IMG/VR virus record: IMGVR_UViG_3300037493_001326
Coordinates: 1-46,288 of that record
Source: a virus
Direction: 5' to 3' (one strand)
DNA: 46,288 nt
This document shows positions 11,510-43,847 of the stretch, in pieces. Position numbers and translations under genes: made by a program. The notes below the pieces were generated by a model. The model made no database searches. It worked only from the letters and a program-made list of their open reading frames with translations, and was not told where the DNA came from. Within the stretch, counting starts at the first letter, position 1. Each line of letters starts with the position of its first letter.

Positions 11510-14500
11510 TTATGGGAAAATATTACCGCTTGCTGACATTATTATTGATCCGTCATCACCTAATGGGAATGTTGCTCCTAGGGTATCTAATGGGTCATTT
11601 ACTACTGTGATGCTTGGTAATGATTGTGATTTACTAAATCCTGTTTCTGAAAGTATGTATCTCTTGTAGTACGGATCAAATACGCCAATCTTCAATGTGT
11701 CAGGCTGTGATTTAAAGCTAGTGTTAAAGAATGCTTTCATTCCATTGCTAGATATCTCAAACAATCCGTCATTGCCAAGGCGAAGCACTGCACCTCTCTG
11801 GCTATCTGTGAAGAACATATTATCGTCCCATTGTGCGAATGACTCAGGGTTATTGCTGATTCCAAACTCCCCCTGATATGCAATCTGTGTGCCCAATACC
11901 TCTGGGATACTTGCTACTTGACCGCCACCCGTTGAGTCGCTAAGAAGGTTCTTGCCAAAGAGCACCTTTGATACCTTGTCTTGTTGTAAGACAACAAGGT
12001 CAGTGTTTCTTGATTTTATCTTTTGTACAGACCCGAATGACTTATCCAAGTATTTAAAGTTACCAAGGGATATATTAAACTGGTTAAGATTATTTACGTT
12101 TGAGTCTTGCTTGTAGACACCGCTATATGTAAGCCCCTCTGAAACGATCTGTTCTCCATAGTCTTCTATTGGAACGGATACCCTAGGCGACCATTCCATT
12201 GTTGGAGCATTAAATTCGTCTTTTATTCTATCCGACTCAACCCCATTAGGGAATGCCCAACAGTTAAAGCTATTGTTAAAAGCAGAAAAATTATCTTGCC
12301 TTAAACTTACTATAGCTGGCAACATATTAGTTTGATTTTGAACGGTACCTGAAGCCAACAAGTTGCCTTCATGTTTTTTCCTACCGAAAGCATCTTCGTA
12401 TATGCTTAAATTTTCTGTGCATTCGTGAAACACAGAGTTATTTGATATTTTAGGTACAGTTTCCAAGCATAAAAAATTTTTTTGATATGTTATAGAAAAC
12501 CCGCCATAATTACCAGTCATACCGGCCGGCAACTCAAAAGTCATATACGAATAATAATTTGAACCAAGGGTTAAATTAGTTGACACTAACATAAATATAG
12601 TAGCAGATGCAATAGTTGATAAGTTACCGACAGTATTTGGCAGTATTTGATCTGTACTCCAATTCGTAGATGGGATCTGCGTATTCGTTATGCCAGTTCC
12701 GTATCTAAAAAACACATTACTATACCCAGTATTATTATTACCATTTGTTTGAGCATACGTACTATATGCCCCGCTTTCCCAAAACCATTCCTGCATATCT
12801 ACATATTGCGTTGGAGCTATATATGTCATATATGGAGATGTAAATATAGGCGGGTTAAGATTTGATAACCCTAAGCTGCCCTCTTTTAACTGACTAAAAT
12901 ATATTTCAGCCCCTGGGTATATTGTAGATGGGTTGTTGGACGGGATTACTATAGATAATTTACTAATAAAATTACCTGCTATTGTTTTAGCTGATGATGT
13001 TTTGCTATATAAATTTAATCTCCAAGAATCTCCAGATGTCATTGCCAAAGATGGCGATATAATAACATTCCCATATAAAGGGCCTATTGGAGTAGATGTA
13101 TATGTGGTTAGATATATAGGAACAGGTATAGATGCATTTGTAATTGGCTGTCTAAATGGGACAGGAGTGGGGTTTATGTTTTGCGATGAATTAAAATCTC
13201 TATAATTTAAACAATGCTGCCCAAGTGAATTTATACCTGCATACGACATAAATATTCTTCTATCTTTAGGCACGTTGATTAACATATTGTAAGTTATATC
13301 AAATGTTTTAAAAGACAGGCCTGAATACGGGTAAAATATAATTGGCGAATAGTCAACTGGGTTTGATGGAATTGCATTCCATGATGGGACGTTTGATATA
13401 TTTGACGACATTCCAAGTATGTCTATAGGAGAAAACGTATTAACAGGGGCTATTGCATTTGTAGTTAAATACGATATTTTTATATAAAGCCCTTCTGGCT
13501 CAGGAGTACCTGGCCCTACAACAACTATATCAATAACTTTGTATTGCTTATCTGAATAGGTTATCCCTTCATACGTAGATTTTATTACTACAAAATCTCC
13601 TATACTTACTTTATCCTTATCTGCAGGACTTAGTCTATAAAACGAATACGGCCCCTTTGGGATAACAGACAAAGGGAAAATATTGTAATACTCTCCTGCA
13701 CTTTGTTTTATTGCCAGCCTATATTTAGTAGCCCAATATGGCGGTGTATGGAATATACTTAACTCTACATAATTTTTTAATTTTGGATTGCCATTAGCCC
13801 CCGGCATATTTAAAACTGAATTATTTATTCTGCAGGTATTTGTAGGGCATGTTATTATCGTAGACATCCTGCCATAATTGTCAAGATAAATTAACCCAAA
13901 TTCATAATCTCGATTTGTTTTTAACGAAGGCTCTACCTGGTTAATTAATATTTCTTGTTGTTTTTTTTGTATTGTAAAATTTGGGATAACAGCTGCGTTA
14001 TTAGTAGTTATCATATTATAATACTGAGTATAATTACCATAAATTAGCCGGCTACCTATAATATCTTGCCCAAGGGCCCTGGTAGGCACGTTGTCAAATA
14101 ATCTAGTTAATTGTGATGACGGTAAAGAAGAATATGTTTTAGTGTTATCAAATTTTTTATATGTCCATAAAGAGTTATCAGGTATAATTGACGTGCTTAT
14201 AATTGGCTTTGCTTTGTTTATTGTTTCTATTATATAAACATTAGGCTGAGACGAATCTTTAAATAAAAACTGAATGTCTGTTACCTGCCTATCACCTGTA
14301 GCTACAGTTATAAAAACAGAGCTTATTGTATTTAACATACCCGCATTATATCCAGTATAGGCGTTATATGAAAAGACAGATGGTTTAAAGGCCACCTTGC
14401 TAAATGGGGCTATTGAGCTCCATCTCCCATCTGTGTATTTATACCTATATGAAAAATAAATAAATTTTTCGCTTATGTAATTCCCTTCTACACCTATACC

Positions 14501-36708: not shown

Positions 36709-37188
36709 ATGAAATTTGAATTTGAATTACACGCCAATCTATTTAAATACTGGAGACCAATCACTCGCTATGTCAAGGAGAAGCACCAGATCAACCAGGC
36801 CGACCTCGATATGCTGATGTTTTTATACGCCGAGCAGTACTTCGCACAGAAAGATTTTAAATCATTCGAGGCTGCATTCCCATGGGACATCAGCCGATTC
36901 CGACGTCTGATGAAGGACGGATGGGTTCACGAGTTTAGGAAGCCTAAGCCGGGCAAGGCTGCTCTGTACTGCCTGACAATGAAGGGCAAGGCCGTCATGC
37001 TTCATATGTTTCGAAAGCTGTTCGGAGAGGAGACCATATCAGAGACATACCGATCGCTACCCAACTACAACAAGCGGAACAATCACGCCAAGGTTATTCG
37101 ACGTGGTCTTGCAAAGAAGATAAACGAGGAAAACAGAGTACGACGTCAATCTCTCGAATCACCGTCCGAAGAACCCCCTCAATCCTAA
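36709..37188 (+). CDS. Winged-helix DNA-binding regulator
   Basis: The protein has 159 residues. Residues about 25-100 fit a winged helix: QADLDMLMFLYAEQYFAQKD, then FPWDISRFRRLMKDGWVHEF as recognition helix and beta start, and KPGKAALYCLTMKGKAVML as the wing. The C-terminal tail is basic and disordered. It is the only rightward gene between the two blocks of leftward late genes. A MarR/PadR-like transcriptional role is inferred; what it controls is unknown. Its last 95 bases overlap, convergently, the 3' end of the GroES gene. Confidence 0.7.
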   Translation: MKFEFELHANLFKYWRPITRYVKEKHQINQADLDMLMFLYAEQYFAQKDFKSFEAAFPWDISRFRRLMKDGWVHEFRKPKPGKAALYCLTMKGKAVMLHMFRKLFGEETISETYRSLPNYNKRNNHAKVIRRGLAKKINEENRVRRQSLESPSEEPPQS

Positions 37189-37575: not shown

Positions 37576-37747
37576 TCTCCTTCAGTTCTTCTTGATAAAA
37601 TATCGCACCCTCCAGCATCTCGATAGTGTTCTCGTGCTCCTCGTGCGGATCTGCCTTGTTCAGCTCCTCGTAGTTGTGTTTGATCCCGTTTAGCATTGCT
37701 AACAGCTGTTCGTTGTACTCGTGCATCATTTCCATTGGTGTGTTCAT
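37562..37747 (-). CDS. Small acidic helical protein of unknown function
   Basis: The protein has 61 residues, acidic and helical (EYNEQLLAMLNGIKHNYEEL, HEEHENTIEMLEGAIFYQEE). Its start shares a base with the end of the GroEL gene, so it is probably translated from the same message. Function unknown. Confidence 0.55.
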   Translation of the reverse strand: MNTPMEMMHEYNEQLLAMLNGIKHNYEELNKADPHEEHENTIEMLEGAIFYQEELKENAAS

Positions 37748-39315
37748 TATGATTGTCTTACGTTTGTGATTATGCAGTTGGTGCTCATTATCGTAGTCGC
37801 TACACTCACGGCGTTCTCCAACGCATTGATCGTAACCTTGGCAGGGTCGACTATCCCCATCTTGACCATGTTCCCTATCTGCATCGCAGAGACATCGTAT
37901 CCGGTGCCTGGGTCAGACGATCTGATCTCTCTCTCAATGTTCTCGTATGGTATCCCTCCGTTGCTGAGTATCTGTCTGAACGGTGCAAGCATCGCAGACT
38001 GTAAGATATGCCATGCGACACGCTCGCTCTCGTTGCTTCCCCAAGACGTGCTAGCAGAGACGTCCATCAGTGCTATCCCTCCTCCAGGCAATATCCCGGC
38101 CTCAAGTGCAGCGGCCGTTGCACAGACTGCGTCGTCGACACGGTCCTTCTTCTCCTTACGCTCTATGTCAGTACCTGCACCGACGTAGATCACACCTACC
38201 CCTCCAGACAATGACGCAATACGTTCCTTCAGGAAGTTCACCTCGTGTGGTGTGGTCTGCTCGGCAAGCTCCTCCTCAATCATCGATATACGGTCGCTGA
38301 TGTCGTTGTGCTCAGAGTTTGTCATGATCGTCGTGTGACCACGGCCGCAGATGATCTTGTTGGCGTAGCCCAGGTCGACCGGCATGAACAACTCGAAGTT
38401 GTCACCTGTCGCATCGCTGAAGTACTTCGCACCGGTAGCACAGGCAATGTCCTGCATCACCTCAGATCGACGGTACCCGAACTGCGGAGGGGTTATATGA
38501 CAGACCTTGACGATCCCTCTCATCTTGTTTATGACCAGAGCCTGCATTGCGTGCTCACTCAAATCGCCGATGATCAACAGCGGTCTCTTCGACTCCATGC
38601 TATACTTCAGCAGGTGCTCGATACTTGAGAGTGTCTCTATGGTCTTATCGGTGACCATCACCAATGCACCGTCCATCACGCACTCCTGCTTGACAGTGTC
38701 TGTAACGAACTGCGGTGCGGACCATCCTCGATCGACCCTCATCCCCGATGTTATCTCTGAGTAGGTGTCCGTTGTGCGGGACATATCGACCGTCACCGTC
38801 CCCTTCTTCCCGACCTTGCTGTAAGCGTCTGCTATCATCTTCCCTATCTCCTTGTCGCCGTTGGCAGATATCGTAGCAACGTATCTAAGGTTTTTCTCGG
38901 AGACAGGCTTAGACATCTTGGTCAGCTTTGATGTGACCACCTCTGATGCTGAACGGATTGCACGGATGATCTCTGTGGTGTTCATACGCTCCTTGACCAG
39001 ATTCTGTGCCTCAAGCACGATAGCCTGTGTCAGAACGATCGCCGTAGTCGTACCGTCGCCGGCGACTGTCGCAGTCTTGTCTGCTGCCTGCTTCATTAGC
39101 GTAACCGCCAGGTTCTCTGTCGGGTCGAGTAGTGTTATTGCGTTAGCAACACTGATACCATCCTTCGTGACGGTCAGCCCACCTATGTGGTTCTCCGACT
39201 CCATCAGGACGGTCTTGCCTCTTGCTCCAAGTGTAGACTTGACAGCGTCTGCTATAATATTAATTCCGGAGTATAATTTCTCCCGGTTAAACGATACCTC
39301 TTTTACGATTGCCAT
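37747..39315 (-). CDS. groEL: Phage GroEL-type chaperonin
   Basis: The protein has 522 residues, slightly short of host GroEL. Equatorial ATPase marks are intact and almost in E. coli numbering: TKDGISVA with Asp52, AGDGTTTA with Asp87, and DRVDDAVCATAAALEAG with Asp395 (E. coli Asp398), followed by GILPGGGIAL. The apical region (about 190-370) is diverged: E. coli FDRGYLSPYF corresponds to VDRGWSAPQF, and the substrate-groove hydrophobics are only partly kept. The C-terminal GGM tail is missing. It would form a cage closed by the phage GroES, and may fold phage proteins such as the capsid. Codon use is richer in G+C than in the tail-fibre gene. Confidence 0.93.
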   Translation of the reverse strand: MAIVKEVSFNREKLYSGINIIADAVKSTLGARGKTVLMESENHIGGLTVTKDGISVANAITLLDPTENLAVTLMKQAADKTATVAGDGTTTAIVLTQAIVLEAQNLVKERMNTTEIIRAIRSASEVVTSKLTKMSKPVSEKNLRYVATISANGDKEIGKMIADAYSKVGKKGTVTVDMSRTTDTYSEITSGMRVDRGWSAPQFVTDTVKQECVMDGALVMVTDKTIETLSSIEHLLKYSMESKRPLLIIGDLSEHAMQALVINKMRGIVKVCHITPPQFGYRRSEVMQDIACATGAKYFSDATGDNFELFMPVDLGYANKIICGRGHTTIMTNSEHNDISDRISMIEEELAEQTTPHEVNFLKERIASLSGGVGVIYVGAGTDIERKEKKDRVDDAVCATAAALEAGILPGGGIALMDVSASTSWGSNESERVAWHILQSAMLAPFRQILSNGGIPYENIEREIRSSDPGTGYDVSAMQIGNMVKMGIVDPAKVTINALENAVSVATTIMSTNCIITNVRQS

Positions 39316-39960: not shown

Positions 39961-40200
39961 GGTCTACGTAGAGATTGGTTTGGACCTATGTTGACTTTAT
40001 GTAGGAATACCAAGGGTTACGTAGAAAAATCGATTTTTAGGACGGTAAATTACTATTTAATAATATTTATATTATATATTTTTTTTTCAATACAGTAGGA
40101 AGAAAAAGTTAACATCTCTACGTAGCCTTAGATAGGAGCGGATCTAGCTTACACAAAGTCAACATAAGCCAACATAAAAAGTGCAAAGTCAACATAAAAA
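39961..40200. other. Candidate origin-type region: AT-rich core flanked by inverted motifs
   Basis: A stretch at about 40045-40090 is almost only A and T and ends in a T-run. Left of it CTACGTAGAGAT (39964-39975) and TATGTTGACTTTATG (39988-40002) appear; to the right ATCTCTACGTAG (40115-40126) and twice CAAAGTCAACATAA (about 40154 and 40184) are the reverse complements. Left also holds ATACCAAGGG(C/T)TA twice (39870 and 40007). A low-melting core between oppositely oriented binding-site-like motifs resembles replication origins; the role is inferred. Confidence 0.4.
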
Positions 40201-40222
40201 AGAGGGGATCTCTCCCCCCTCT
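40195..40222 (-). terminator. Intrinsic terminator after the small minus-strand gene
   Basis: On the minus strand AGAGGGG, 8-nt loop, CCCCTCT, then a T-run. It lies about 65 bases downstream of the stop of the 66-residue gene (40286). Confidence 0.65.
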
Positions 40223-40285
40223 GGTCAACACATTAAGAAATTTAATCATATGTATGTTTAACATATTATAAATTTAATACATATG

Positions 40286-40486
40286 TTAGTAAGATGATAC
40301 CGGCATACTCTTGTTCATTTTGTTCATAATTGCTAACTTAGAGATGCCCATCATCCGATCATTAATCGGTCGACCTTCACTTTTGCCTAACCCATTTGGC
40401 CCTGGGGCGGGCTTGATTTGAGCGCAGTACTTCCCGTTTGCCTTAGGCGGGCTAGAGGATAACGCTGTGTATATTTTCGGTTTCAT
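40286..40486 (-). CDS. Small isolated protein of unknown function
   Basis: The protein has 66 residues from ATG 40486, set by TATCTTTG-TAAC-ATG. It is basic with a Pro-rich middle (SSSPPKANGKYCAQIKPAPG) and PNGLGKSEGRPINDRMMGIS. It stands alone in the control region, with its own promoter and terminator, so it is probably a small regulator or a replication/host-interaction factor. No family recognised. Confidence 0.6.
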   Translation of the reverse strand: MKPKIYTALSSSPPKANGKYCAQIKPAPGPNGLGKSEGRPINDRMMGISKLAIMNKMNKSMPVSSY

Positions 40487-40498: not shown

Positions 40499-40650
40499 CG
40501 GATTTTTGAAGGTTACGTGTATAGAGTGTTCGGGTAATAAGGTCATTTTAAATTGGTTACCATCAAAAGAAAGTCAGAAAATATCGACCCACGGGGGTCA
40601 GCATTTGTTAACATTTGGTGAAAACTTTTGCCTTTTTTGGTGGCGGTGGC

Positions 40651-40916
40651 ATAGGCTGAGTCTATGGGACGCACGTAATTATATAGACGCTGACTATAGC
40701 TACTATAGATTACGTCTATAGTTGAGCCGTCTATATATAGGCTGAGTCTATGCCAAGCTATAGCTTTACTCTATGGAATGAGGACTGATGTATAGATAGA
40801 GCCTATATGAATCTATAGACCAACCCTATATCAATGGCATTGTTATATAGACTCACTCTATATCCTCCTATAGACTGAACCTATATTACTACAGCTATTA
40901 TATAGGCTGAGTCTAT
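40651..40916. repeat. Array of ten ATAG-N7-CTAT sites with 55-bp period
   Basis: Fifteen-base sites with conserved arms ATAG and CTAT start at 40651, 40683, 40705, 40737, 40760, 40792, 40815, 40847, 40870 and 40902. Start-to-start distances are 32, 22, 32, 23, 32, 23, 32, 23, 32. The 7-base core is GCTGAGT in three copies and differs in the rest, and the spacers (17 and 7-8 bases) are unrelated in sequence. Two 13-base relatives (ATAG-CATTA-CTA[TC]) follow at 40927 and 40948. Arm centres are one helical turn apart, fitting a dimeric DNA-binding protein. It is too regular to be chance. Confidence 0.85.
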
Positions 40917-41024
40917 GGTCAACTTGATAGCATTACTATCGTATCACATAGCATTACTACTGCTGATTCAGTGCCTATACGAAACTTAATTGACATATTG
41001 GAGTAATAAGGTCTCATTAACTTG

Positions 41025-41525: not shown

Positions 41526-41930
41526 TACATCGGATATGCCGATATATGTTTGCATCGGATTTGAAACACACCTCACCTCCACCCCGCTCTTTAACTTTTA
41601 GTCCTTCGGTCAACGGCAACGATGAATGCACTTCGCTTGGCACTGATGTAATATCAGCAACAACCTATCAGTCGAAACAATCGCCCCTACATAATGCAAC
41701 CGAAAATAGCACGTAAAACTATTACACCTTCAATGTGTGGACACAGACAGCAGATAGCACAATGAGTATAAGTCTATCAACGTTTGAACTTAGACCTTAT
41801 AGGGAATCGCACCGACTCTATATTGTATTCAGGTCGCGACGAAGTGGAGAGAGAAAGCCACAAGTAGTCGAAGAGGGAATCTGATTCACAAGAACGATGG
41901 CCCAAAAGTAAGATAAAAAGAAACAAATAT

Positions 41931-42977: not shown

Positions 42978-43847
42978 ATGAACATCAACAAATTCATCGC
43001 ATTAGTAAGAGCAAACGGAGGCGGTAGCATCCATATGCCATCAGCAACAATCAACCCAACACGTGGCTATATGGTAAGCCTAAAAGGATTCGAGAAGAAA
43101 CTTAAAGGTAGCCTAAAGGTCGAAGAGGTAATGGACTATGTCCACAGCGAGATAGACAGCACGGGGTTACTCAACAATCACCACACCTACCTTGGCATAT
43201 GGCTGAAGGATGGCGTATGGTTCTTGGACGTCAGCATCAATATGGACGACAGAGACTCAGCCATCGCATTCGGCAAGGCTAACGAGCAGATAGCCATATG
43301 GGATTGTGCCAAGGGTGATGAGATAGTACTTGACTATGAGGAAGTCAACCTATACCCACGCAAGTGTTCGGTGACGGGCAAAGGTATGGCAGAAGGATGG
43401 TGCCTATTCGGTGGTGATGAGTACGCATCTGACGAAGCAAGTGCAAACATCATAGCACAACAATACGGATATGATGACCTATCCGATGCCATCGAGGATA
43501 GCGACAACACGTATTGGACGGAGTGGGATACTGACCTAAATGAAGACGACAACGACGAGACGTGGGATGCTGACGGCAATCTATACACGTGGGTTGACGG
43601 CAAGCCGACACGTTATGTAGAGCCTACTGCTGAGGTGATAGACCTACGCAAGAATGTTCGCAGTCATCATCAGTATGCGGTCACCTTTACACGTGAATAC
43701 ACGACAACCATCAACGTCAGCTCTGAGGATGAGGCATCGGCCATCGTGATGGCTCACGATACCTTAGCAGAGCAAGAGATGGAGCAGATGAACGTCGAGA
43801 TGACCAACATCGTCGTCAAAAAGAGATTCAATTTAGCAAAAGGATAA
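42978..43847 (+). CDS. Acidic protein of the rightward operon, unknown function
   Basis: The protein has 289 residues, strongly acidic in the middle (DDLSDAIEDSDNTYWTEWDT, then DLNEDDNDETWDADGNLYTW). N-terminal NGGGSIHMPSATINPTRGYM and VSLKGFEKKLKG is followed by a HHTYLGIWLKDGVWFLDVSI strand set, a Cys-containing RKCSVTGKGMAEGWCLFGGD segment and a C-terminal YAVTFTREYTTTINVSSEDE-type domain (about 230-285) resembling small beta-alpha modules. The GGGS..P..GYMVS start is a pattern of unknown-function phage and plasmid proteins. Acidity could mean DNA mimicry, but this is only a suggestion. Confidence 0.6.
   Translation: MNINKFIALVRANGGGSIHMPSATINPTRGYMVSLKGFEKKLKGSLKVEEVMDYVHSEIDSTGLLNNHHTYLGIWLKDGVWFLDVSINMDDRDSAIAFGKANEQIAIWDCAKGDEIVLDYEEVNLYPRKCSVTGKGMAEGWCLFGGDEYASDEASANIIAQQYGYDDLSDAIEDSDNTYWTEWDTDLNEDDNDETWDADGNLYTWVDGKPTRYVEPTAEVIDLRKNVRSHHQYAVTFTREYTTTINVSSEDEASAIVMAHDTLAEQEMEQMNVEMTNIVVKKRFNLAKG

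Follow-up and report, generated by a model that had tools for sequence, protein, structure and literature searches.

A phased lattice of ATAG-N7-CTAT palindromes at the late/early gene junction of a Bacteroidota podovirus: almost certainly where a protein complex docks, and perhaps a replication origin

What kind of element is built from ten short palindromes set in a strict alternating rhythm between the late and the early genes of a phage? The question is raised by the IMG/VR record IMGVR_UViG_3300037493_001326, which was analysed in its entirety (46,288 bp, hereafter the window). Comparison of its terminase, portal and GroEL proteins groups this phage with podoviruses of Bacteroidota, the nearest named record being Podoviridae sp. 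ctfjg026 (MW202828.1; terminase 67% identical), followed by Flavobacterium phages of the genus Elemovirus and by Cellulophaga phages. A leftward block of structural, lysis and chaperonin genes extends up to about 39.9 kb, and a rightward block of small early-type genes starts at 42.0 kb; the palindromes sit in the mostly non-coding junction of about 2 kb between the leftward late and the rightward early genes. The window ends before most of the early genes. For Bacteroidota podoviruses akin to Elemovirus and the Cellulophaga phages we know of no mapped cis-element at an origin, centromere or switch region, and a literature search found nothing specific on a matching element.

37747-39315, minus strand: GroEL (phrog_5725, E 4.5e-135), in the leftward block
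40651-40916, no strand: the array of ten ATAG-N7-CTAT palindromes, from an exact pattern search; arms and phase kept in the relatives L029 and L017
40926-40960, no strand: two ATAG-N5-CTAT variant sites with a 5-bp core

The first-pass annotation had read ten 15-bp sites in an alternating rhythm of 32 and 22-23 bp, and the pattern search recovered them exact to the base, with zero mismatches in all ten, starting at 40651, 40683, 40705, 40737, 40760, 40792, 40815, 40847, 40870 and 40902. The successive steps (32, 22, 32, 23, 32, 23, 32, 23 and 32 bp) describe five rigid 32-bp pairs linked by steps of 22-23 bp, over a total length of 265 bp. Elsewhere in the 46 kb the exact pattern occurs a single time, at 43323 within an ORF; there is one array locus, and no operators are dispersed over other promoters. 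No equal array arises in shuffled sequence: in 2000 dinucleotide-shuffled versions of the 300-bp region there were 0-2 sites, against the ten real ones, and when any 4-bp arm with any spacer of 3-13 bp was accepted, the best of 1000 shuffles reached five.

The cores had been called mostly unrelated, and varied they are, yet not free of pattern: GCTGAGT is seen three times, and over the sites of the three array-bearing phages the core begins with A in 20 of 31 cases and ends with T in 20 of 31. In all three phages the first site is preceded by GGC or GCC and the other sites by T. The two shortened relatives that had also been noticed follow the pattern ATAG-N5-CTAT, the one at 40927 exactly and the one at 40948 with a single mismatch; judged by sequence, they are probably real sites, because L029 has two exact copies in the same place (GATAGTATTACTATC, starts near 12421 and 12454).

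The two array-bearing relatives were fetched from IMG/VR by a three-site scan for ATAG-N7-CTAT, in which 22-33 was allowed between successive exact sites, and groEL served as the anchor for finding the homologous junction. The close one, L029 (contig 3300043570_001535), is about 90% identical to the window in blocks and its early region is likewise cut off; its array holds eight sites with steps of 32, 22, 32, 23, 32, 23 and 32 bp, one 55-bp unit being gapped out with the phase retained. In the pairwise alignment the arms are identical at 64 of 64 positions, the cores at 45 of 56 and the linkers at 51 of 91 (56%), a difference between arms and linkers with a Fisher p of 9e-12. The distant one, L017 (contig 3300020159_002173), has a GroEL 46% and a terminase 64% identical to those of the window, and its DNA is not alignable (blastn gave zero matches). 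Its array nevertheless lies at the same junction, upstream of groEL, with 13 sites at offsets 0, 32, 53, 85, 107, 139, 160, 192, 215, 247, 268, 300 and 324 and a decayed fourteenth at 356; some of these sites are degenerate, and the exact ones alone (0, 32, 53, 192, 215, 247, 300 and 324) fit the lattice. Across the three phages the 32-bp step is invariant and the alternate one measures 21-24 bp, while the number of sites goes from 8 (L029) through 10 (window) to 13-14 (L017). A position-weight chain score, trained on the same three phages that it scored, reaches 220, 176 and 202 bits in these, against null level in all other relatives scored.

Arms and 55-bp phase are thus kept in both array-bearing relatives while the linkers diverge, which strongly supports the earlier claim of selection for protein contacts at a fixed geometry. 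We have hardly any doubt that the array is a protein-binding element under selection, and it is almost surely the docking track of a protein complex, perhaps at a replication origin. We read the rigidity of the 32-bp pair as a sign of a fixed protein-protein contact spanning it, and the 21-24 bp step as a sign of a flexible one. The array is in any case a precise 265-bp target that comes with a natural deletion variant (8 versus 10 sites) and a deep homologue (13-14).

The same annotation had placed half-sites and sites at whole helical turns. Half-sites within one site lie 11 bp apart, and the best single helical period over all half-sites is 10.95 bp in the window, 10.90 bp in L029 and 10.80 bp in L017, with a phase coherence R of 0.96, 0.96 and 0.90 that 0-1 of 5000 random spacings reach; at 10.5 bp the coherence is 0.15-0.25. 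The half-sites are therefore in phase, but with a fitted period of 10.95 bp in the window instead of 10.5, so that they would share one face only if the DNA were underwound or wrapped, or else the path of the complex would slowly turn. This lattice (rigid 32, elastic 21-24, period about 10.9 bp) constrains the geometry of any model of the bound complex.

How widely is the element shared? Some 20 other relatives, two of them with complete genomes, lack it, and a whole-record search of 13 relatives, among them the complete MW202828 and Elemovirus elemoA_7-9A, found no pair of sites. Because most relatives lack it, the array is, as far as these records indicate, a lineage-specific cis-element and not a family-wide one. 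In the GroEL tree, where several long branches make the placement of carriers indicative only, these fall in two places and are not sisters, which needs two changes and would be expected of an exchangeable module; either the module is passed between lineages, or there were repeated losses. A search of IMG/VR for more 32/22 arrays returned just the two known lineages. There was no match for the array region by blastn against 50,697 phage records, for the right half of the window by megablast, or in Rfam; the 289-aa early protein and the HTH protein of L017, used as queries, brought no new relatives, and in the array-less ones no other spaced motif that might replace the array stood clearly above shuffles.

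The immediate surroundings of the array contain the following features.

40286-40486, minus strand: short ORF, 66 aa from the ATG at 40486, with a GRLINDR...GI motif in common with short ORFs of L061, L070 and L076
40491-40498, minus strand: promoter-like element of the Bacteroidota -7 type, TATCTTTG, from a TAnnTTTG consensus scan; identical in L029
40600-40650, no strand: non-coding block abutting the array (GACCCACGGGGGTCA...TTTTGCC...GGC), 98% identical to L029
41518-41525, plus strand: candidate -7 element TAACTTTG, from the same consensus scan; kept in L029

In the 50 bp to the left of the 40600-40650 block identity to L029 falls to 76%, and in L017 a loosely similar GGGGGGTCA...TTTTTGCC adjoins the first site. 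The two -7 elements, which are consensus matches and not mapped promoters, lie about 150 bp to the left and about 600 bp to the right of the array, which overlaps neither; the leftward one is about 150 bp from the array in the window and about 545 bp from it in L017. TATCTTTG stands directly upstream of the ATG at 40486, and weak BLASTP matches suggest that this short leftward ORF and those upstream of groEL in L061, L070 and L076 form a family. At the array and next to it the AT content in 50-bp bins is 56-68%, with AT-rich stretches 400-600 bp off and no AT-rich unwinding element adjoining it, and no DnaA box lies at the array within one mismatch; GC skew is unusable as an origin test here, since gene direction flips at the same place.

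Other elements share this junction. Repeats of a second family, TGTCGA / GTCAACATAA, which are often paired at a distance of 9-12 bp, occupy 39987-40230 of the window and 6443-6718 of L017, and are also found upstream of groEL in L056, L061, L069 and L072; unlike the ATAG array, they occur at the same junction in array-less relatives too, and they are a possible site for a MarR-fold or DnaA-IV-like protein. A terminator-like hairpin (GAGGGG...CCCCTC plus a T-run), seen by eye on the minus strand at 40196-40222, follows the short leftward ORF, and about 150 bp at 41600-41750, in which there is no clear gene and no Rfam match, show nearly 100% identity to L029.

As to function, we conjecture, with a confidence somewhat short of even, that the array is iteron-like and seeds a replication-initiation complex. 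Each ATAG-N7-CTAT palindrome would be bound by a symmetric dimer of a phage-encoded protein; a pair of dimers at a distance of 32 bp would make one rigid unit, and units would be joined through the slightly flexible 21-24 bp step. With all sites on the same face, 8-14 dimers would build at the late/early junction an extended nucleoprotein complex round which the DNA is wrapped, or by which it is underwound. Its purpose would most likely be the initiation of phage DNA replication, at an origin working like the lambda O-some, and the carrier lineage would have acquired or kept the module while its relatives use another. As in iteron origins of the lambda O type, there are several palindromic sites at regular spacing, and the varying unit number (8, 10 or 13-14) is iteron-like behaviour. 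The differing distance to the leftward promoter-like element suits an origin or a centromere better than a promoter operator and, together with the single locus, the varying unit number and the patchy distribution, favours an origin- or centromere-like element. Against an origin counts the fact that the array-less relatives replicate without it. DnaA domain-IV-like proteins, the only hit of the initiator search among the scanned L017 early genes, are widespread, so that initiation across the family may not need the array. Near the array in the window, which lacks most early genes, no gene for an initiator, a helicase loader or any other replication function was recognised, and this lack of a known initiator and of an adjoining AT-rich element argues against over-confidence.

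A protein that could fill the role of the dimer was sought in the window and in L017, and a single recognisable DNA-binding protein is encoded in the window.

36709-37188, plus strand: MarR-fold winged-helix protein (AlphaFold model, pLDDT 81; top PDB hit a MarR on operator DNA, with a modest E of 1.3e-3)

Relatives that carry the array and relatives that lack it both keep this protein; as an array-specific binder it is therefore unsupported, although it could still bind there. The cognate protein was not found among the window proteins examined. The early genes of L017 encode a DnaA domain-IV-like protein, a MoxR-like ATPase, an annealing protein and a product of 204 aa that may contain a helix-turn-helix, and no tie was found between the array and any of the L017 early proteins scanned. 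Within the family, free-standing DnaA domain-IV (Bac_DnaA_C) proteins have a wide distribution, with carriers in the L017 (L077:10623-10922), MW202828, L056, L058, L061, L066, L072 and L076 records.

Known systems offer partial likenesses. The four O sites of the lambda origin lie within the O gene and adjoin an AT-rich region; like the array, these iterons are tandem palindromic sites with a spacing of about two turns, each a dimer site within a wrapped nucleoprotein complex, whereas here dimer binding and wrapping are what we infer. The array differs in its 8-14 sites, its non-coding DNA and its alternation of 32 and 21-24 bp, and no initiator gene or abutting AT-rich element was identified for it. 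In phi29, the p4/p6 region is a protein array at a divergent early/late transcription junction, a likeness of position only, since sites, proteins and phage are unrelated. Operator clusters of the CI/Cro type also place palindromes at fixed spacing in a divergent region, but no CI/Cro gene was found adjacent to the array, which has more sites and lies off the promoter-like elements. The RepA_N iterons of the PLE satellite are semi-palindromic repeats in a non-coding region, needed for replication (PMC7145576), and resemble the array in this respect, although arms and spacing differ and no RepA_N protein was found here.

Replication, partition and silencing had all been offered in the first reading, and the sequence shifts their relative odds but cannot tell the three apart. 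An early/late transcription switch, in which a phage regulator coats the array between the divergent promoters, represses one block and activates or insulates the other in the manner of phi29 p4/p6 or of CI/Cro, is possible but on the unlikely side. The array does lie between the leftward late and the rightward early blocks, its sites are palindromic and operator-like, and the TAnnTTTG elements on both sides are kept in L029. Moreover, arrays of GATA-N7-TATC, a palindrome of equal composition that served as control, stand beside Cro/CI-type HTH_3 genes in other phages, where multi-site phased operators are thus common; these are mostly of 3-5 sites, 28, 29 or 35 bp apart, against 10-14 sites here when non-tandem control arrays are compared. 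The array overlaps neither promoter-like element, its leftward distance is not fixed between relatives, and no HTH_3 gene or Pfam HTH appeared among the flanking ORFs tested. That a new kind of nucleoprotein element, a paired-palindrome lattice with an invariant three-turn and an elastic two-turn step, exchanged among Bacteroidota podovirus lineages, controls through one wrapped complex both replication and the early/late switch seems to us improbable. A partition or other DNA-anchoring site, centromere-like and bound by an adaptor of the ParR, TubR or ParB type, is still harder to sustain: a single cis locus of phased palindromes with variable copy number and strongly conserved arms would fit it, but no ParA, ParM, TubZ or ParB-like gene was found in the 46 kb or in the scanned L017 proteins, both genomes being incomplete, and the named relatives are isolated free phages without signs of a plasmid state.

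A packaging-initiation site of the pac/cos type, bound by a small-terminase ring, is very unlikely here, even though phased ATAG-N7-CTAT arrays of unrelated phages do lie within 3.6 kb of terminase genes. TerS rings have been proposed to wrap DNA, and the array, like the SPP1/SF6 pac repeats, might be wound about a ring made up of helix-turn-helix domains (PMC4737164). SF6 TerS, however, has little sequence specificity (PMC4737164), and the arms here are strictly conserved. In the window the terminase lies at a distance of 14 kb (about 8 kb in L017), so the packaging link does not apply directly to this array. No small-terminase-like gene adjoins it, and in the 93-aa product encoded upstream of TerL no helix-turn-helix is evident, while its gene has a positional counterpart in the array-less MW202828; terminase-linked arrays, besides, are mostly spaced 31/25-26/30-31 or 24/30, not 32/22. 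Finally, five units of similar length might be the functionless relic of a 55-bp tandem duplication, an idea already contradicted by the conservation pattern and scarcely credible: arms are 100% conserved against 56% for linkers in L029, the same lattice occurs in L017 without alignable flanking DNA, Tandem Repeats Finder yields no repeat in the array, and the linkers are alike in length, not in sequence. The 17-bp linkers show a symmetry about the unit centre that is suggestive in L017 and weak in the window.

The three-site scan also returned unrelated contigs, whose steps, once tandem copies were removed, cluster at 30-33 and 21-26 bp. With a large-terminase profile, TerL was found at most 3.6 kb from the array in 10 of 11 TerL-matching contigs and 7 of 8 families (grouped by array spacing), against 0 of 14 for the GATA-N7-TATC control (Fisher p 3e-6 when counted by contig and 5e-5 by family). 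Some of the ATAG contigs are short, which favours nearness to the terminase; among those of at least 29 kb it is nearby in 6 of 7, where about 23% would be expected (p 8e-4). From their position, such phased arrays in other phages look like candidate pac/cos packaging sites.

The terminase-linked arrays (L016, L018, L021, L025, L027, L028, L030, L031, L037, L044, L045, L047 and L051) have 3-6 sites with steps mostly of 30-33 and 23-26 bp, several of them just upstream of the small-terminase gene. Arrays of ATAG-N7-CTAT with varied cores and a 21-bp period occur as well in L085, L087, L110 and L112, on several contigs of one bacterial genome, Candidatus Aminicenantes CS4-C025.
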